Positions 45,969 through 62,620 of a stretch of 64,000 nt of DNA are shown here, piece after piece (position 1 is the first letter of the stretch; each line of letters starts with the position of its first letter). The position numbers and the translations under genes are program-made. The notes under the pieces are model-generated. The model was not told the DNA's origin and ran no database searches. It saw nothing but the letters and a program-made list of their open reading frames with translations. Source of the stretch: a virus. The stretch lies in IMG/VR virus record IMGVR_UViG_3300044712_000810, positions 62,001-126,000 of that record; one strand, 5' to 3'.

Positions 45969-47204
45969 ATGGCAAAGAATGAACAAACTGAAAACAGAGT
46001 CGAAATGCCATTGGCAGATCTGATTCAAAACTTTGTCGTTCCGAACTGCTATTTGCAGTGCGACAAAGACACGTCAGATAAAGGCGGCGTGGCAATTCCA
46101 TACATCGTGTCGAAGCCTGGCGCCGGTAAGACATCAGTTATCGAGGCGCTTTGCAAGAACAATGGATGGGGACTCATGTCCGTTCACTTTGCCCTCAAGC
46201 CTATCGAAGAGCTTGGTGGCATTCCGAACTTCACCAAAGTTCACATCAACGGCAAGGAAGTTTCAGGTACCGAATGGACCGTTACCGATATGGTAACGAA
46301 ACTGTGGGAGATGCACAACGAAACCAAAGAGGTTTTGGCGAAGGACGGGTCAACCGTTACCGAACCCAAGTACAAAATCATCATACTGCTGTATGACGAT
46401 GCTCACCTTTGCGGTCCCGGACACATGGCATTCTTCTACGAACCTTTCACCGAAAGAACAATTCGTGGGCACAAGTTGCCTCCGAACTGCGCACAAGCAA
46501 TGGCAGGAAACGACAGCAACAAAGCAGGCGCAAAAGCCTTCTTCTCCGCTATCACCAACCGTTGCGCTCGTCTCTATGCAAGAGCAGAATTCAAACCTTG
46601 GAAAGAAATGTTCGCTCTTCCCAAGCAGGTTCACCCGGCAGTTGTTTCTTTCCTCGGAAAGGACAACTATCAGTTCCAGTTCTTCCATGGCGAAGAAGTT
46701 CAGGATTCTCCTTGGGCATCACCCAGATCCTGGACTCGTCTCGCAAACTTCATCGAGGCGTATGAAAAGTGGAATGGTGGAAAAGCAATGCCTGCTTCCG
46801 AACTGCGCTTCTACGCTGAAGCTCACGTCGGAAAATCTGCAGGAAACGAATTTTCCAACTACTATTCCGTATTCACCAAATTCAATCTGGATCGTGATCT
46901 CGATAACTTCAAGAACTTCCAACTTCCCTCAAACGATATCGACAAATACGCATTCGCATTTGCGATCACCGCGCATTACTGCGGCAACAAGGAACTGAGA
47001 AAGGTCAAGAGCGAAAACTTCGCTCACATCCTTTTCCGTTACCTTGAAGACTGCCGTGAAGTCGGCATCGTCATGATGAAGGATATCATGTCCCTCGAAA
47101 AGATCGTCAAAGATGAAAACATCTTCGGCGCTGTCGCGAAGCATCTGGAAAAACTGAAGCCCACTTGCGTTACCGCGCTGTTGCAAGAAGTCGCTCGCCT
47201 GTAG
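45969..47204 (+). CDS. MoxR-type AAA+ ATPase
   Basis: 411 residues, ATG preceded by AAAGGAGTTACTACAA, ending in TAG. Walker A KPGAGKTS (49-56), Walker B with Asp-Asp (IIILLYDDAH, 137-146), sensor 1 Asn in AMAGNDSN (~178-184), a likely Arg finger in NRCARLY, and SPRSW near residue 251-255. MoxR ATPases pair with VWA-domain proteins to remodel or mature targets; the next gene is such a partner. Base composition is near 50% G+C in several lines counted by hand (32 and 29 of 60), far above the phage average, and the gene opposes its neighbours. It looks recently acquired or under strong codon selection. Confidence 0.85.
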   Translation: MAKNEQTENRVEMPLADLIQNFVVPNCYLQCDKDTSDKGGVAIPYIVSKPGAGKTSVIEALCKNNGWGLMSVHFALKPIEELGGIPNFTKVHINGKEVSGTEWTVTDMVTKLWEMHNETKEVLAKDGSTVTEPKYKIIILLYDDAHLCGPGHMAFFYEPFTERTIRGHKLPPNCAQAMAGNDSNKAGAKAFFSAITNRCARLYARAEFKPWKEMFALPKQVHPAVVSFLGKDNYQFQFFHGEEVQDSPWASPRSWTRLANFIEAYEKWNGGKAMPASELRFYAEAHVGKSAGNEFSNYYSVFTKFNLDRDLDNFKNFQLPSNDIDKYAFAFAITAHYCGNKELRKVKSENFAHILFRYLEDCREVGIVMMKDIMSLEKIVKDENIFGAVAKHLEKLKPTCVTALLQEVARL

Positions 47205-47212
47205 GATAATAC

Positions 47213-48553
47213 ATGAGTGCGAATCTGGCGAAAGTCAAAAAAATAATCGAACAAGCCAGATTGAAGCTGATCCGTAAAGAATACTTATTCTTCGGTCTCT
47301 TCTGCGGCAAGTTCGTGTGGAAGCATTACGATTTCGGTGATGAAATGAAGGATATCGAAGGTTGTGTCTATCTTCCGAACGACCCAAAGAATCCTGATAA
47401 AGAAGTGATGGATAACGCAATCCATCTCAATGATAGATTCATTTCAAAAGACGATTATACATATTTGAATCTTTGCGATCTTGTACTGCATGAATCGCTA
47501 CACATCATAAACAAACACGGAATACGTCGCGGATCGAGAGATCCAAAACTTTGGAATATTGCAGGTGACCATGTCATCGACAGATTCCTCCGTGATTTGA
47601 ATATGACTAAACCATATCATAGGTGGAACGTAATTCCAGAACTCGACAAAGCACTTCCAAAGTGTTCTGCCGAGGAAGCCTATATGTGGCTTGAAAAAAA
47701 TCAAAAGAAATTCACAATATCACAAGATCCTGCATCAGGACAAATTACTATTACAGATGGGCAGGGAAATACATTCCATGTCAATCCATCGCAAGGTGGT
47801 GTGACATCTGGTAATGTTGATCCCAAAGTAAAACAAATGGTTGAAGAACTTGTTGCAGGCGCCAGAGCAATTCACGAGTCATCGAAAGATCGTGGTGTTG
47901 GTTCCGCAGCAATTTCTGCATATCTTGATGATGTTCTTAAGGTTGTGATTCCATGGCAAGAACTGCTTGAAATCGCGATCAAAACAAATATCATAATGAA
48001 ACCGGACGATTATGGTTGGGCAAACCCCAACAAACGCCTCAGATGTCATGGCCTTGTGCTTCCTGGAAGCATAATGACAGAAACAAATGAAGGCGTTGGA
48101 ACTCTCATAGTTCACGTAGACACTTCTGGATCAGTTAACGACACACAGCTTAAAGAAGCTGCTGGAATAATCTGCGAATCTATGAGATATTTCAAAACAA
48201 TTAAACTCATTACTGCCGACTGGAACATTCAACAGGAAGTTGATTTCGACAGCGACAGTATTAGTGATTTCCTTAACTTCTGTCAAAAAGAAGGATTTAA
48301 AGGTCGTGGCGGCACATCACATAAACCAACGTTTGATCGAATCAATGAAATCTGGGAAGACAACATTGATGATCTCTCGATGGTAATTTCAATAACCGAT
48401 GGATATTCTGATATTGAACAAATATATACAGTATATCCATTCATAACAAACCACGTTCCGTTGGTTTTCCTTCTCAATGGCGGATCGAGGGAACTAAATC
48501 TCAATCCTGATATTGGGAAAATAAAACAAATCGTCATGGACGATGCAAAATAA
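47213..48553 (+). CDS. VWA-like protein with N-terminal HExxH metallopeptidase domain
   Basis: 446 residues, starting 9 bases after the MoxR stop, so the two form one operon. Residues 93-97 are HESLH, a zinc-peptidase motif, and AGDHVIDRFL (~117-126) may give the third ligand. The C-terminal VWA-like domain has a MIDAS set: DTSGS (303-307), GGTS (366-369) and TDGYSD (395-400). This arrangement corresponds to the COG3864/DUF2201 type often found next to MoxR ATPases. A likely model is that the ATPase delivers or unfolds a target for the peptidase. G+C falls along the gene, from foreign-like at the start towards phage-like at the end. Confidence 0.8.
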   Translation: MSANLAKVKKIIEQARLKLIRKEYLFFGLFCGKFVWKHYDFGDEMKDIEGCVYLPNDPKNPDKEVMDNAIHLNDRFISKDDYTYLNLCDLVLHESLHIINKHGIRRGSRDPKLWNIAGDHVIDRFLRDLNMTKPYHRWNVIPELDKALPKCSAEEAYMWLEKNQKKFTISQDPASGQITITDGQGNTFHVNPSQGGVTSGNVDPKVKQMVEELVAGARAIHESSKDRGVGSAAISAYLDDVLKVVIPWQELLEIAIKTNIIMKPDDYGWANPNKRLRCHGLVLPGSIMTETNEGVGTLIVHVDTSGSVNDTQLKEAAGIICESMRYFKTIKLITADWNIQQEVDFDSDSISDFLNFCQKEGFKGRGGTSHKPTFDRINEIWEDNIDDLSMVISITDGYSDIEQIYTVYPFITNHVPLVFLLNGGSRELNLNPDIGKIKQIVMDDAK

Positions 48554-52577: not shown

Positions 52578-53378
52578 TTATAATTGTGTAGTTTTAAGAG
52601 TACCATCATCTTCAACAGTGATTTTGAAATTGGTACCATTGGGAGAAGTTAGAATAATACCAGATTGTACTTGAGAAGGAGTATTAGAACGAACAAATAA
52701 ATCTTGATCTATTTGCCATTGTTCTGCTGTTTCTTTCCAAGTAAGTGATACATTCTGTTCTGTACCACGTTCAATTTCAATACGACAATCACTATTGGCT
52801 ACACCAGTAAGATCTTTATTTAAAGTAAATGTTGGTGAAGTTGTTCCATCAACATCTGACTTATTCGCTAATTCAGTCGCCAAACCTGTCATTGTTGGAC
52901 GATCAGTTAACGCTTGACTAAGATCTGTAATTGCATCAATTGGATGACAATTTAAATCATCACGGCCTTTCATTCCATTATGAAGACTTGAAAAGACACT
53001 AGCACCAATAAATGGTCTTGCATCAAAAATCGCATCATCATAAATAGCAGTAACACCACCATCGACATATACGATGGCAAGTGGAACATGTCCTTCTGGA
53101 ATGGCTGGAACTACAGGATTTGCAGATTCTAAACCATTAACTAAAAGAACATTAGCACGTTTGTCGATAACAACTACGACCCATTTTGCAGCAGAAGAGC
53201 TAGCAGTAATAGTAGGACTTGTACCGCCAGAATATTCAACAAAAGTTATACCATCATGCCAAAATGAACCTTCTGTTACTTTTACTTTCATAGAAGGAGT
53301 TGCGGTTGCATGAACTTTTAAATTTGCAAAGTATGCTCCTGCACGATTAAGTGAATCGCCTTTTGGTGGAAGTCCCAT
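52578..53378 (-). CDS. Tail fibre/receptor-binding-type protein
   Basis: 266 residues, ATG 53378. The N-terminal half (KVHATATPSMKVKVTEGSFW; GHVPLAIVYVDGGVTAIYD) resembles the particle-binding or upper domain of small tail-fibre proteins. A middle helix (ITDLSQALTDRPTMTGLATE) fits a trimer stalk, and the end is beta-rich. It belongs to the fibre block. Exact receptor role unknown. Confidence 0.6.
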   Translation of the reverse strand: MGLPPKGDSLNRAGAYFANLKVHATATPSMKVKVTEGSFWHDGITFVEYSGGTSPTITASSSAAKWVVVVIDKRANVLLVNGLESANPVVPAIPEGHVPLAIVYVDGGVTAIYDDAIFDARPFIGASVFSSLHNGMKGRDDLNCHPIDAITDLSQALTDRPTMTGLATELANKSDVDGTTSPTFTLNKDLTGVANSDCRIEIERGTEQNVSLTWKETAEQWQIDQDLFVRSNTPSQVQSGIILTSPNGTNFKITVEDDGTLKTTQL

Positions 53379-54015: not shown

Positions 54016-54669
54016 TTAATTCCCAGCAGTATAAATTTTACTAGTCAAGCGATAATTAGAATCATAATTATAAGTATAACTATGTATTATGGTTGTTCCA
54101 TTAAAATCATAAAAGGTTTCTTTTGAAACAAATCCATGTGAATTATATAGATATTTAATTAATCTTCCAGTTGAAAATGTAATAGTATCAACAAATCCAT
54201 TCGCATTATATGTTAATGTTGTTGATGATGTATCTGCAAAAAGTGTATCCTGTGTTATATATGTAAAACACGATGATGGATAAAATGGAAAAAGGTCAGC
54301 ACGTTGTAAGTGTTTTTCTTGATCAGATGTGTGTGTTACGATATTTGTATTTAATGTATTTAATTTATCTGGTGTTAATGGAGATCCTTTTCCCCAATAT
54401 GTAATAGAATAAGTATTTCCTGATTCAGATTCGTTAAAAAATATATCTGCATTTTTATAGTTTATAAAAAACGACCCACTTTGCGGTGGATATGAAGTCG
54501 TTTGCGATAATCCTATGATTACTGGTGATACTTTAAGTTCACCATTATCTGGCATTTCAGTTAATTTTAAACTATAAGGAGGATCAACCGGAACTATAAG
54601 TTGTTCAGTTATTTCCACTAATTGCCAGATACCATCAGGTGATTTTCTTAATGGAACTAATGGAAACAT
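54016..54669 (-). CDS. Putative fibre protein with YD-type repeats
   Basis: 217 residues. The C-terminal ~75 residues carry repeated Tyr/Asn/Gly beta units (LTYNANGFVDTITFSTGR, IKYLYNSHGFVSKETFYDFNG, YTYNYDSNYRLTSKI) like YD/RHS repeats that form beta shells. The N-terminal part is beta-rich. It neighbours fibre genes and the HD-GYP gene. Role in the fibre is inferred from context. Confidence 0.6.
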   Translation of the reverse strand: MFPLVPLRKSPDGIWQLVEITEQLIVPVDPPYSLKLTEMPDNGELKVSPVIIGLSQTTSYPPQSGSFFINYKNADIFFNESESGNTYSITYWGKGSPLTPDKLNTLNTNIVTHTSDQEKHLQRADLFPFYPSSCFTYITQDTLFADTSSTTLTYNANGFVDTITFSTGRLIKYLYNSHGFVSKETFYDFNGTTIIHSYTYNYDSNYRLTSKIYTAGN

Positions 54670-54680
54670 GTAAGTCTCCC

Positions 54681-55757
54681 TTAAATATTTGGATTAAATT
54701 TAAAACCTGAAGTAAGTACTTGTATACAAGCATCTACAATGTCATCATCTAACTTGATTCCTCGTTCTTCATTAATTATTGACATAGCCTTATCAATACC
54801 AAGACCAGCACGATACGGTCTATGATTTGTAACTGCTTCAACAACATCAGCAACTGAAATTATTCTAGATAAGAAATGTATTTCATCACCTTTCAGTCCT
54901 AATGGATAACCGGAACCATCTAATCTTTCATGATGTTGATGTATAATTTCATGAACCGGTATCGTATATTTAAATGGAATCTTTTCAACTATTTTAGCAC
55001 CAACTTCTGAATGTAATTTAATAAAATTCATCTCATGTTCAGTTAATTTTCCTGGACGGACTAAGATCTCTGTTGGTGTATAAAATTTGCCAATATCATG
55101 AAGTATTGAAGCTATCTCGAGGCATTCCATATCTTCATCATTTAATTTAAACAATTTCCCAATTTCAAGAGAAAGATGTTTAACTCTCATTTGATGACCA
55201 TATGTATATGGATCTTTAATTTCACCCATTTTCGAAAGTGTTTCAACAGTTGAAACTATAACATCTTTCGAATAATGATTTGTTTTTGTTAATCGCATTT
55301 CAGTATCTTCTAAAACTATAATCGCTCGTTTTAAAGCATCTATATATTTTTTTTCTTTAGATAAATCAACAATAATTCCATAAATTAAATCATTATGTAA
55401 TAACATTGAATCTTTAGCTTCAAATTCTTTACCTGTTTTAAAATTAATAAAAACAGACTCGAGTGAATAGTATTTATTCTTTTTTAATTCTTCAATTGCT
55501 GTAAGTCGAACATTTGAATCGACATATACTTTCGATGAATTAAAATCGTAATCTATCATATGATTAACATCATTATAACCAAATAACTCACAAAAAAATG
55601 AGTTAGCATATAATATATCACCATCAATTGATGTAACATAAACACCAATCTCGGCATTATCAAAAACATCGAAAAACTTTTTTGGGATGCATTTATGTTC
55701 GCAATTAACATTAAGAACATCTCGAAGTTTTTCTAACAACTGTTTTTTATTTTGCAT
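54681..55757 (-). CDS. PAS-HD-GYP protein (probable cyclic-di-GMP phosphodiesterase)
   Basis: 358 residues. PAS domain ~28-135 (IGVYVTSIDGDILYANSFFC), a linker helix, then an HD-GYP domain ~165-355. The catalytic set is intact: H188 (YGHQMRVKHL), H220-D221 (ILHDIGKF), H249 (LHSEVGA), H275/H276-E277 with DGSGYP (280-285), and D304 in SVADVVEAV followed by NHRPYR. HD-GYP enzymes hydrolyse the bacterial second messenger cyclic-di-GMP; related ones also act on cGAMP-type dinucleotides. The PAS part may sense a ligand. It sits among fibre genes, 11 bases from the next, so it is probably made late with the structural genes. Very unusual for a phage; the family call is firm. Confidence 0.85.
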   Translation of the reverse strand: MQNKKQLLEKLRDVLNVNCEHKCIPKKFFDVFDNAEIGVYVTSIDGDILYANSFFCELFGYNDVNHMIDYDFNSSKVYVDSNVRLTAIEELKKNKYYSLESVFINFKTGKEFEAKDSMLLHNDLIYGIIVDLSKEKKYIDALKRAIIVLEDTEMRLTKTNHYSKDVIVSTVETLSKMGEIKDPYTYGHQMRVKHLSLEIGKLFKLNDEDMECLEIASILHDIGKFYTPTEILVRPGKLTEHEMNFIKLHSEVGAKIVEKIPFKYTIPVHEIIHQHHERLDGSGYPLGLKGDEIHFLSRIISVADVVEAVTNHRPYRAGLGIDKAMSIINEERGIKLDDDIVDACIQVLTSGFKFNPNI

Positions 55758-55770
55758 AATAATCTCACTT

Positions 55771-55792
55771 GAGGGGAGGTTTCCCTCCCCTC
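55771..55792 (-). terminator. Hairpin between 74-aa gene and HD-GYP gene
   Basis: GAGGGGAGG-TTTC-CCTCCCCTC with no clear T-run on the minus strand; may be an mRNA stabiliser or partial terminator. Confidence 0.55.
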
Positions 55793-55796
55793 GAAG

Positions 55797-56021
55797 TTAC
55801 GCGGGTTTAGGTATTCCTACTATTGGTTTGTATACATATTTTTCATAACCAGATGATACTTTTTTAGCAGTATCTTTTTTTAATCCTACATCTCGTAATC
55901 TTGAATATATATGAAGCGGACTTCCATAATGATTAACAGCATTATGAACATTACTTTTTACTTTTTGATAAGTATCACCTAACCATCCTTCATTAATCAT
56001 ATGGTTAGATATTGAGATCAT
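55797..56021 (-). CDS. Hypothetical small protein
   Basis: 74 residues (MISISNHMINEGWLGDTYQK...), basic and amphipathic, ending VGIPKPA. Its start shares a base with the end of the upstream fibre gene, so the two are coupled. No family recognised; possibly a fibre assembly or attachment factor. Confidence 0.6.
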   Translation of the reverse strand: MISISNHMINEGWLGDTYQKVKSNVHNAVNHYGSPLHIYSRLRDVGLKKDTAKKVSSGYEKYVYKPIVGIPKPA

Positions 56022-58234
56022 TATGATTTCTCTTCAAGTGCCTCTACTCTTGCTGCAAGTTCTTGAATTGCTTTAATTATTGGAGAAATAAATTCATTAT
56101 AACGCAATCCATAGATATCATTAGCTTCATCATATACAAAACCAGCAAATGTAGATGAACATTTATTGATTAAAGTTTTTACTTCTTGTGCGATAAGACC
56201 ATAATGTTTTTGGTTGTCATTATTGTCCTTCCACTTATACGAAACAGGTCTTAATTCAAGAACAAAGTTAAGACCAAGATCTGAATTCTCGATATTTCCT
56301 TTCTTTCTTAAATCTGAAGTTTGAATTGTAGCGTTTGTTGCATAGATATCTTTCCATCTAATTCCAGGTGTACCTAAGCTATAAGTATCATCTGTTCCAG
56401 CAACAATTGCGCCTTCAACTGTTAATTTACCATTATTTGATGTTGTACCAACAAGTAAATCACCAGTATTATTAATTCTTACTTGTTCTGTGAATGTTCC
56501 GCCGGCAATACGTTTACCAAATGAAATAATAGAAGATGCATTATTATTATGTGATAATTGAAGTGAATTTGAATTTGCTTCAACTGTAATATCACCATCT
56601 GTTGCGCTTTGGAATATATTAAGTTTTCTATTATTACCATTAAGGTAGATATCACCAGTTGTATTAATAAAACCTGTTGTTCCGGCAGTTCCACCAACAC
56701 ACAATTTACCATCATTGGTAATCTTAACTTGTGTTGTGAATACGTCGGATGAGTTAATACTACCAAACAGTATTTCAGATGTTGCGGAAGTATTATGTGC
56801 AATTCTAATATCAGTTAATTCTTCATCGATAACAACGTTTCCGTTTGTTGAATCTTTTACAAAAATAACTTTATTTTCAGAACCTGTAAATAATACATTA
56901 CCATTAATGTTTAATCTTTCACTATTAGTAAAAGTATTTAAAGATAAGTTTCCAGTAGGACCTAATAACATTTCTGTTGTAAATGCTCCAGCACTATCTT
57001 TACGTCCAAACACCATACCAGCATTTGTTTTACTACTATGTGAAAGATACAATACACCACTGTTTTGATCGTCTGCAAAAATATCAATGTTACCGTTTGT
57101 TGTATCTTCTTTAATTCTAATCAATGGTAAGTTTGAAACAAGTTCAATATTACCATTAACAGTAAGATGTGACTTTTCAACTTCTGTGTTGATACTCATT
57201 TTACCACTACTAAATACACGAGCGGCCTCAACACCGTTACATGCAAAAGAAATTATACCTTTGCCTGGTGTATAAAAACCAGTATCATTGTCATTATCAC
57301 CATAGTCAAAGTATAATCTTGGCGCAGTAGCATCAATAGATGAACCAGATGTAATACCAACACGACCAGTGAATCTATCACCAGTCTTTTTAGCATAAAC
57401 AGCGGCAGCATGGAATGGACTTACTGCGCGATTTGATAAAGTTCCATCAATAACTTCTTGACGAGTACCTAAAGTAATTATACCAGCAGTAGTTTCACTT
57501 GAAAGTGGTATATTAGCAATTTTACTCCAATCAATTGATGTTACTTCATTATTTGTGTGATTGTGAGGAGGAAGCTGTTCAATTGGCATTTTACCAGTAC
57601 TATCAAGACTTGCGGTACCGTTATTCATACCAATGATTGATTTTAATGATAATGGTGAAACTGCGCGGGTATTATCTAAACCAGCCATAGTTTCAACATC
57701 TGTTGCTAACTCAACAATACCTGGAGTTGTTTGTGATGCACTTGGAATATTTTTCAGTTTAGACCAATCAATATCCACAAGAGTAGAATCACCATGAGTA
57801 TGTGAGTTATCATTAATCGCAACAGTTAATGTAGCATCGGCCATATTATTGAATATGGCAGAACCAGAAACATCACCAGTCAATGTAAGTCTTGGACTAG
57901 GAATGTTTGTTAGCATTGTAAAATCGACACTTCCCATCTCTCCACTTAAGTGTGAGTGAGGTGGAAGTTGTGCCATAGGAAGTTTTGAACTTTCGTCAAG
58001 TGATGCAATACCATTCGCAATACCACGAATACCATTTAGACTTTCACATGTAACAACCGCGTCTGTTGTTCCGGCAAAAGTTTCTTCGGTAGTCGCAAGT
58101 TTAACAATACCTGTAACAGTAGTTGTAGCACTTTTAAGGTGATCATTGTGAATAGTATCTCCGGCTTGGAATTCACTTAATGATGTAACACTTCCAGCTG
58201 TAAATACCCCTCTAAATGGTCTTTTATCAGCCAT
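56021..58234 (-). CDS. Tail fibre/spike with C-terminal S74 chaperone-peptidase domain
   Basis: 737 residues. The last ~110 residues carry the intramolecular chaperone signature: TSDLRKKGNIENSDLGLN, then LRPVSYKWKDN and KHYGLIAQEVKTLI, ending in a coiled helix. Such domains help the trimer fold and then cleave themselves off at a Ser of the SD-R motif. The rest has repeated stalk units (LPMAQLPPHSH and related PIEQLPPHNH stretches with DWSKL/IANIP) and a long beta shaft. It is a major receptor-contact candidate. Confidence 0.75.
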   Translation of the reverse strand: MADKRPFRGVFTAGSVTSLSEFQAGDTIHNDHLKSATTTVTGIVKLATTEETFAGTTDAVVTCESLNGIRGIANGIASLDESSKLPMAQLPPHSHLSGEMGSVDFTMLTNIPSPRLTLTGDVSGSAIFNNMADATLTVAINDNSHTHGDSTLVDIDWSKLKNIPSASQTTPGIVELATDVETMAGLDNTRAVSPLSLKSIIGMNNGTASLDSTGKMPIEQLPPHNHTNNEVTSIDWSKIANIPLSSETTAGIITLGTRQEVIDGTLSNRAVSPFHAAAVYAKKTGDRFTGRVGITSGSSIDATAPRLYFDYGDNDNDTGFYTPGKGIISFACNGVEAARVFSSGKMSINTEVEKSHLTVNGNIELVSNLPLIRIKEDTTNGNIDIFADDQNSGVLYLSHSSKTNAGMVFGRKDSAGAFTTEMLLGPTGNLSLNTFTNSERLNINGNVLFTGSENKVIFVKDSTNGNVVIDEELTDIRIAHNTSATSEILFGSINSSDVFTTQVKITNDGKLCVGGTAGTTGFINTTGDIYLNGNNRKLNIFQSATDGDITVEANSNSLQLSHNNNASSIISFGKRIAGGTFTEQVRINNTGDLLVGTTSNNGKLTVEGAIVAGTDDTYSLGTPGIRWKDIYATNATIQTSDLRKKGNIENSDLGLNFVLELRPVSYKWKDNNDNQKHYGLIAQEVKTLINKCSSTFAGFVYDEANDIYGLRYNEFISPIIKAIQELAARVEALEEKS

Positions 58235-61297: not shown

Positions 61298-62620
61298 TTA
61301 TTGGCCTAAATACTTTTTAGCATCTATGTCCATATTATCTAAATCAAGAACCTTAAGGGCAAAATACTCGGCACTATCTTTTCTGCCACTTTTCTGAAAT
61401 ACTCGAAAAATATTTTTAATGATAGACTTATTACCTTCACCAAATTTACCATTTATAGCTAATGCCTTTTCCAAAAAACTAGAAGAACTTTTAAATTCTC
61501 CACCTTCAGCATAAGCCATTGCAATATTATAATATAAACCTTCATCATTCTTCTTAATTGTTATTGCTTTTTCATATTCACGGATAGCATCACGCCATTT
61601 ACCCTGTTTACGATAAATTATTCCAAGTTTATTAAATACTTCAATATCGCTATCTTCATACTCATTATTTCTATATGCAATAGCTCTTGAATAATATTTA
61701 AGTGCAAGATCTGGATTCTTTTCTTCTGTCATTTCTGCAATCTTTTTAACCAAAACAACAATTTCATGAATAGCATCTTGCGCTGCTAATTTAATCGCTT
61801 CATTAAAATATGACTCAGCAACATCAACTTTACCAAGATCAAGATTTATTTTACCAATTTGCATTTTTCGTTGTGTATTTAAAGGAGATAATCGTTCTAA
61901 TTTATTTAGATATTTTAAAACTTTGTCTGTATCGTTTTTAACAGAATAAGCTTCCGCAAGCTTCTTAATCGGTTCTAAATATAATACCGATTGTCTATGC
62001 GCAAGATCATAATATTCAATAGCTTTATCCGGGTTATTTAAATGATAAAGTTCAATATCACCATATAAAATATTTCCAGTCGGTGAATTAGGTTTTTTAC
62101 TGAGTATTTGTTCGACAATTAATTGAGCGACATCATATTTTCCAAATTCCATATTAGTTTTAGCTTTATCAATAAGTTCACTCAATTCACCGTGTGGTTC
62201 TATAACATTCGATAATTTTTCAACAAGAACATCAACAGAAACTGGTTTAATTACAAAATTTTTAGCACCAAGTTCATGATAAAGTGCTAATATATTTTTA
62301 TGAGTCTCTGTAGTAACTATAATGGTTTTAACATTTTTAAAATTTGATGAAATAGTTCCCAAAATTGAAGTTACAAAACTATTTGAAAAAATCATATCAA
62401 ACACAAAAATGATATTATTACTATCACATCGTTTAAGTTTTGAATACAAGTCAAGATCATTTGATGCAAATATAATTCGATCTAAAGTTGCACCAATATA
62501 CTTAGTTACTGTAATTTTTAATAATTTGAAAAAACTACTATTTTCACCAAGATAAAATATATATCCATTATTTGAATGAAGATAATCGAAAACTGCTTTG
62601 TCGTATTTAGTGTTTTTCAT
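61298..62620 (-). CDS. Degenerate response-regulator receiver plus TPR repeats
   Basis: 440 residues. Residues ~18-140 follow a CheY-like fold: a strand at ~70 with D75 (IIFVFDM), T103/T104 (IIVTTE) and the conserved K125-P126 (NFVIKPVS). The usual acidic pair near the N-terminus is replaced by G-E-N (25-27), so phosphorylation may be weak or lost. Residues ~147-440 are TPR repeats (for example KYDVAQLIVEQILSKKPNSP and KWRDAIREYEKAITIKKNDE), protein-interaction scaffolds. Such fusions are common in environmental bacteria and rare in phages. It is the last gene of the group at 61.3-64 kb. Confidence 0.7.
   Translation of the reverse strand: MKNTKYDKAVFDYLHSNNGYIFYLGENSSFFKLLKITVTKYIGATLDRIIFASNDLDLYSKLKRCDSNNIIFVFDMIFSNSFVTSILGTISSNFKNVKTIIVTTETHKNILALYHELGAKNFVIKPVSVDVLVEKLSNVIEPHGELSELIDKAKTNMEFGKYDVAQLIVEQILSKKPNSPTGNILYGDIELYHLNNPDKAIEYYDLAHRQSVLYLEPIKKLAEAYSVKNDTDKVLKYLNKLERLSPLNTQRKMQIGKINLDLGKVDVAESYFNEAIKLAAQDAIHEIVVLVKKIAEMTEEKNPDLALKYYSRAIAYRNNEYEDSDIEVFNKLGIIYRKQGKWRDAIREYEKAITIKKNDEGLYYNIAMAYAEGGEFKSSSSFLEKALAINGKFGEGNKSIIKNIFRVFQKSGRKDSAEYFALKVLDLDNMDIDAKKYLGQ

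Follow-up and report, generated by a model that had tools for sequence, protein, structure and literature searches.

A phage PAS-HD-GYP gene lies among signalling genes that most likely form an accessory set, probably using c-di-GMP

In the relevant passages of Iyer et al. 2021 (PMC7824862), jumbo-phage HD-GYP enzymes (e.g. QDB70412.1) are predicted to act in anti-defence by hydrolysing cyclic dinucleotides or oligonucleotides. The gene described here encodes an HD-GYP domain behind a PAS sensor and sits in a late block of a phage genome, raising the question of whether its product is a lone counter-defence enzyme or one output of a signalling pathway. We analysed a window of 64,000 nucleotides, corresponding to positions 62001-126000 of a virus record of 314,837 bp (IMGVR_UViG_3300044712_000810), together with further stretches of that record and its relatives.

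The record carries a T4-type gene set. The major capsid and tail sheath proteins were identified from sequence reading and synteny, and the phage also encodes a UvsX-like recombinase and an RNA polymerase beta-like protein. A search with the capsid protein against 50,697 phage records gave no match. At approximately 110-150 kb of the record lies a block of fibre and lysis genes, almost all on the minus strand, in which fibre- or baseplate-like proteins are interspersed with a GH108 endolysin and small membrane proteins. The first-pass annotation had placed the PAS-HD-GYP gene inside a tail-fibre block, and this position is borne out by the second gene upstream, which carries an S74 chaperone and has many tail-fibre PHROG matches. 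The gene, its parts and its surroundings are as follows (window positions unless otherwise marked):

54681..55757, minus strand: PAS-HD-GYP protein gene, 358 aa, ATG start (ORF list, Pfam)
55404..55679, minus strand: PAS sensor domain, residues ~27-118 (Pfam, NCBIfam sensory_box, model strands 38-51 and 96-131, PAS fold matches)
55215..55364, minus strand: long signalling helix linking PAS and HD-GYP, residues ~132-181 (AF2 secondary structure)
54741..55238, minus strand: HD-GYP domain, residues 174-339 (Pfam, PmGH alignment, residue mapping)
55771..55792, minus strand: perfect 9-bp GC-rich hairpin, 13 nt ahead of the PAS-HD-GYP start codon and not followed by a T run
55797..56021, minus strand: 74-aa ORF immediately upstream, start MISISNHMINE, no Pfam match
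56021..58234, minus strand: tail fibre with C-terminal S74 intramolecular chaperone (Pfam, PHROGs)
54016..54669, minus strand: 217-aa late protein immediately downstream (phrog_11315, weak)
52578..53378, minus strand: fibre/baseplate-like protein (phrog_20556, 4.9e-6), start similar to that of L007:2028-3863
L007:4401-4973: GH108 endolysin (Pfam, 1.2e-21)
G000 84888-85652: large terminase (profile match)

The start of the 74-aa ORF resembles a leader-like start common to small late proteins in kin phages, and on sequence reading the 217-aa protein begins similarly to another ORF of the block (L008:4871-5491). Short perfect GC-rich hairpins, of which the one at 55771-55792 is an example, number 58 in this AT-rich record, and a terminator scan of 50-62 kb scored few GC-rich hairpins as terminators.

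The ORF lies exactly at the stated position, and profile HMMs confirmed the domains that had been read from its letters. HD_5 matches at 1.7e-38 over residues 174-339, covering the profile almost end to end, and HD (3.6e-18) and PAS_8 (8e-8) match as well, values that lie far beyond chance. NCBIfam adds HDIG and, under its cut-off, a NosR-type c-di-GMP response regulator, while a PHROGs search with the protein returned no match. The order of parts, an N-terminal PAS domain followed by a helix and then HD-GYP, is supported by Pfam, by the structure model and by fold matches.

To place the catalytic residues, we aligned the protein to PmGH and took residue roles from PMC4159591. The predicted metal ligands are H188, H220-D221, H249, H275-H276 and D304, which reproduce the pattern H...HD...H...HH...D of HD-GYP phosphodiesterases and account for seven of the eight PmGH ligands. 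D182 and K224 correspond to the essential pair, G283-Y284-P285 form the GYP motif within HHERLDGSGYP (residues 275-285, the HHExxDGxGYP pattern), and R313 and R316 correspond to guanine contacts of PmGH. PmGH D308 is Glu307 in the phage protein, as in many of its relatives. The claim of the first-pass annotation that every landmark is present in an intact set therefore holds for GYP, RPYR and these seven ligands, but not for the eighth, since PmGH E185 is replaced by Tyr184 in the context D-P-Y-T-Y-G-H. The Glu or Asp of the trinuclear (E/D-T-G) subfamily is thus missing, and Tyr184 excludes only that subfamily. A Y-T-Y cluster defines the Y/F subfamily, which is predicted to be binuclear (PMC4159591), and we assign the phage domain to it because Tyr184 lies in such a cluster. 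As all ligands of the Y/F subfamily are kept, the predicted active site is complete for its own subfamily and is probably a two-metal site. These residues are best read as those of a phosphodiesterase competent to cleave cyclic dinucleotides.

An AF2 model built from an alignment of 15 sequences (mean pLDDT 78.8, pTM 0.53) contains a PAS domain, a 50-residue helix and an HD-GYP bundle; residues 314-320 and the termini are poorly modelled, and the relative placement of the domains is unreliable. By sequence, the nearest PDB proteins are V-cGAP3 (6.7e-36) and PmGH (1.8e-30), with DvhD also close. Foldseek ranks the DvhD PAS/HD-GYP, PmGH and PA4781 as the best PDB folds, followed by numerous PAS domains. 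In a viral structure library the significant matches are mainly PAS and kinase proteins, including a kinase of Agrobacterium phage Atu_ph07, and none bears an HD-GYP name.

The first-pass annotation overlooked the signalling genes beside the enzyme. Five such genes lie within 17 kb of the PAS-HD-GYP gene (116.7-117.8 kb of the record); they encode a sensor histidine kinase, a PAS protein standing alone, a receiver-TPR protein whose receiver half is degenerate, and two receivers that are intact:

L007:6333-7871 (132.3-133.9 kb of the record), minus strand: sensor histidine kinase, 512 aa (HisKA 2.8e-19, HATPase_c 3.1e-26)
L007:5901-6320 (131.9-132.3 kb), minus strand: lone receiver (Pfam, 2e-24)
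L007:1079-1501 (127.1-127.5 kb), minus strand: lone receiver (Pfam, 1.1e-21)
L007:444-1082 (126.4-127.1 kb), minus strand: PAS protein (Pfam), 4-nt overlap with the preceding receiver gene
61298..62620 of the window (123.3-124.6 kb), minus strand: receiver-TPR protein, 440 aa, with TPR repeats and a degenerate receiver half

The kinase has the HisKA and HATPase domains and the membrane sensor expected of a two-component kinase: two TM helices flank a sensor of ~170 residues, and its H box (SHEIRTP), N box and G1/G2 boxes (GIGIP and GTGLGL) are legible on sequence reading. Its gene lies 12 nt upstream of the receiver gene L007:5901-6320. Both lone receivers keep the acidic pocket, the phospho-Asp (LLD), the Thr/Ser and the Lys, while Response_reg falls under the cut-off on the receiver-TPR protein (0.0024 and 2.8e-4). 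The signalling genes are alike in being AT-rich (GC 0.25-0.29 vs a mean of 0.335; GC3 0.11-0.18 vs a mean of 0.233), a GC deviation of ~1.3 standard deviations or less that leaves a common origin unproven. Pfam and a kin-derived profile detected no PilZ protein in the phage, and no GGDEF domain was found there. Because kinase, receiver, PAS and receiver-TPR genes share the block, a signalling pathway is favoured over a counter-defence enzyme acting by itself.

To see the locus in its lineage, we gathered kin from IMG/VR by capsid and sheath scans. G002 (IMGVR_UViG_3300028920_000044, 109 kb) has its virion genes in the same order as the phage, with identities of 62% for sheath, 57% for capsid and 54% for UvsX. 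Its block holds a hybrid kinase, an adjacent lone receiver, a receiver-HD-GYP protein and PilZ proteins; the kinase (1692 aa) combines an SBP-type ABC_sub_bind sensor, four PAS domains, GAF, HisKA, HATPase and a receiver. G008 (61 kb) has a G002-like layout, with SBP_bac_3 as the kinase sensor and five PilZ matches, four of them above cut-off. Pfam detects PilZ in kin at 2.8e-13, and among the ten aligned PilZ-like proteins of G002 and G008 all carry RxxxR and most carry [DN]xSxxG; these c-di-GMP receptor motifs were seen in kin only. The less related G003 (234 kb) encodes a receiver-HD-GYP protein shortly after its tail genes; its hybrid kinase lies in another part of the record. No PHROG covers the tested kin PilZ protein, nor most of the kin HD-GYP domain.

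In the five kin records with the block marker, HD-GYP and receivers occur together in G000 (this phage), G002 and G008, and G037 and G039 have neither; with five records, this co-occurrence is suggestive only. G037 (286 kb) does without the signalling set, which is therefore dispensable to the lineage. Since the kin without HD-GYP are also without receivers, these genes most likely form an accessory signalling set, probably using c-di-GMP. We base our conclusions on G002 and G008, whose virion genes mark them as kin. The fibre block of G037, which has no HD-GYP, encodes a protein of 919 aa that has roughly six PAS domains but lacks a kinase domain (L224:7806-10565).

Single-protein scans of viral and bacterial collections found no close relatives of the HD-GYP protein, and a profile scan was then used. 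It returned 62 viral loci with HD-GYP and bacterial relatives spread over many phyla. We tested 36 viral records with HD-GYP, among them this phage: 19 have a large terminase and 17 show none, and some of these 'viral' records may be bacterial. Seven of the 19 terminase-bearing records, a set selected for HD-GYP, also have a HisKA match. GGDEF domains are also present in three HD-GYP-bearing viral records, G017, G011 and G012 (contigs L046, L044 and L054). We set aside matches in the phage collection to UNVERIFIED faecal scaffolds and to 'Microcystis phage MaAM05'. The latter match has bacterial neighbours: secE, nusG, rplK, rplA, ilvD and kdgA cluster in MW495066.1, 22559-47137, and the record appears to be a mislabelled bacterial contig.

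In the HD-GYP tree, virus proteins are scattered, and the supported branches force at least four changes between viruses and bacteria. The end branch of the phage protein is long (1.18). Grouping the HD-GYPs of the three kin under a single origin is not rejected (AU test, p 0.85); they may descend from one ancestor, with an exchange of the sensor, or from several. An attempt to infer the host from this tree failed, the nearest rows coming from many phyla without resolution.

Taken with the residue mapping, these observations lead us to favour, with moderate confidence, the reading that the phage protein is a phosphodiesterase acting on a 3',5'-cyclic dinucleotide, probably c-di-GMP, and that it is one output of the accessory signalling set. 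Direct evidence covers the domains, the catalytic and phosphorylation residues, the gene neighbourhood, the co-occurrence in kin and the PilZ motifs of kin. The membrane histidine kinase would sense conditions outside the cell through its extracytoplasmic sensor, and phosphate would move from it to the separate receiver proteins. The HD-GYP proteins, gated in the phage by PAS (through a ligand or a partner) and in kin by a receiver domain, would open the cyclic dinucleotide and so reduce the messenger in the infected cell. Expression is presumed to come late in infection, and in that phase the phage would probably gain by altering the surface, matrix or motility of the host, or the time of lysis.

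The substrate assignment to c-di-GMP, which the first-pass annotation had also proposed, finds partial backing: kin with receiver-HD-GYP proteins also encode motif-bearing PilZ proteins, although none was found in the phage itself with the profiles used. Together with the base contacts, the PilZ proteins of kin make c-di-GMP the most likely substrate. A substrate call from a specificity-residue signature was dropped, because according to a review (PMC8177086) the residue fails to explain the V. cholerae enzymes. Whether kinase and HD-GYP would act in one pathway is a further matter. We suppose that they do, but the phage HD-GYP carries a PAS domain rather than a receiver, and the kinase is 15 kb distant; having no receiver, the HD-GYP protein is not a direct partner of the kinase by a known route.

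Several other readings of the gene deserve consideration. The enzyme might destroy host immune cyclic nucleotides, such as those of CBASS or type III CRISPR, with the kinase and receivers unrelated to it. This would agree with the published prediction for jumbo-phage proteins in the passages cited above, with V-cGAP3, annotated as 3'3'-cGAMP-specific, being the top PDB sequence match, and with the report, in the same review, that three V. cholerae enzymes accept both c-di-GMP and cGAMP. However, a PAS sensor, or a receiver in kin, is ill-suited to a constitutive sponge for immune signals, the HD-GYP-bearing kin carry receivers and kinases too, and proteins with c-di-GMP PilZ motifs are co-encoded in kin. 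PADLOC returned nothing specific, giving only weak HD cross-matches to Cas3 and Cas10, and we regard this counter-defence role as unlikely. It is improbable that the protein is a receptor that binds c-di-GMP and switches a partner, as suggested by its best fold match: DvhD of Desulfovibrio vulgaris (9rc0, 9rbz) likewise has PAS, a helical stalk and HD-GYP, and its PAS/HD-GYP binds c-di-GMP without hydrolysis (PMC13090378). Unlike the phage protein, DvhD is membrane-bound and lacks the HD and HH pairs in the alignment, whereas the phage protein keeps D182/K224 and all seven metal ligands expected in the binuclear subfamily.

There is also a slim chance that the gene is a captured host regulator without lasting use, or drifting cargo. 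HD-GYP is indeed accessory, as two of the five kin records covering the block do without it, and the tree demands several virus-bacteria transfers; yet all subfamily catalytic residues persist in spite of the long end branch, the base composition is phage-like, and HD-GYP occurs in three kin for which the AU test allows one origin. Packaging into the virion for delivery at entry, an idea raised by the first-pass annotation, is very improbable. The gene does sit among fibre genes, and many small late proteins of kin in the same block have a leader-like start, but this start is missing from the HD-GYP proteins of the phage and of kin, and the motif is not enriched in the phage (3 of 371 ORFs vs a shuffle mean of 1.1). 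No targeting leader of the kin type was seen on the protein, and nothing else suggests packaging. In G002 (L117-L122) and G008 (L123-L125), many unrelated small late proteins begin M[IL][SPT][IV]..LFE or similar, in 8 of 96 and 13 of 67 ORFs against shuffle means of 0.37 and 0.27. This start resembles the T4-type capsid-targeting leader ending LxE, and these could be internal head proteins.

Compared with known systems, the phosphodiesterase proposed here is close to bacterial PAS-HD-GYP enzymes of the Y/F type. It shares with them the domain order, Y-T-x-G-H, HHERxDGSGYP and RPYR, and is 32-37% identical across PAS and HD-GYP; it differs in its late-block location, its long branch and a longer helix between PAS and HD-GYP. 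Where the passages of Iyer et al. describe phage HD-GYP enzymes, they name neither PAS nor PilZ, and two-component systems enter them only to be excluded for a divergent cREC domain. A phage-carried sensor histidine kinase is shared with the agrBDC genes of phiCDHM1 (PMC3901668), but AgrC there is a quorum-sensing kinase in a phage without a response regulator and without a cyclic nucleotide enzyme. YIP peptides of PB1-like phages (PMC9145820) and virus diguanylate cyclases (PMC7785012) likewise alter, or could alter, host c-di-GMP: YIPs, which bind a host cyclase, raise it, and the virus cyclases would make it, whereas the present enzyme would lower it and has a phage sensor kinase nearby. 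The kinase and receivers match phrog_20458, 857, 10912, 5982 and 731, indicating that such proteins occur in other phages, and nearly all of these families are listed as of unknown function. In the open-licence PMC literature, we found no description of a phage two-component set linked to HD-GYP and PilZ. The parts are thus already known singly in phages, and the linked set is new within the open-licence literature as far as searched.

A broader proposal, which we hold tentatively, is that this jumbo-phage lineage carries its own c-di-GMP circuit of sensor kinase, receivers, regulated HD-GYPs and, in some members, PilZ proteins, set beside lysis and fibre genes and turning an outside cue into the course of late infection, for instance the time of lysis or a dispersal of cells. 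If this is true, the phage would decide during infection from its surroundings, using the host's own chemistry. A phage that supplies the sensor, the relay and the enzyme that degrades the messenger, with receptors added in kin, would go beyond known phage tampering with c-di-GMP, and jumbo-phage HD-GYP proteins would gain a reading other than the published counter-defence. Concrete candidate genes are named here in three related phages.

The record holds further genes of note. At 45969-48553 of the window, a plus-strand pair stands amid the minus-strand run and reads, by eye, as an AAA-type ATPase and a VWA protein; the pair is retained in kin G002 and G037 at 39-42%. A late-block protein at L007:18596-19168 has a PLD-like domain (4e-21) and a signal-peptide-like start, and could be an exported nuclease or phospholipase. 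A second HD-domain protein, at L004:11748-12530, matches HD (1.7e-19) and HDOD (6e-7) and is not HD-GYP. Three tandem paralogues of ~490 aa, starting MKLSTQENLDIS, lie in a fibre-like region at L010:6883-11328 (192.9-197.3 kb). Near collar-type tail-fibre-like genes at 191-222 kb, the record encodes four radical SAM proteins (L010:5087-6337, L011:11196-12143, L011:13404-14543 and L011:14816-16042), of which two carry SPASM; they could be maturases for fibre proteins or peptides.
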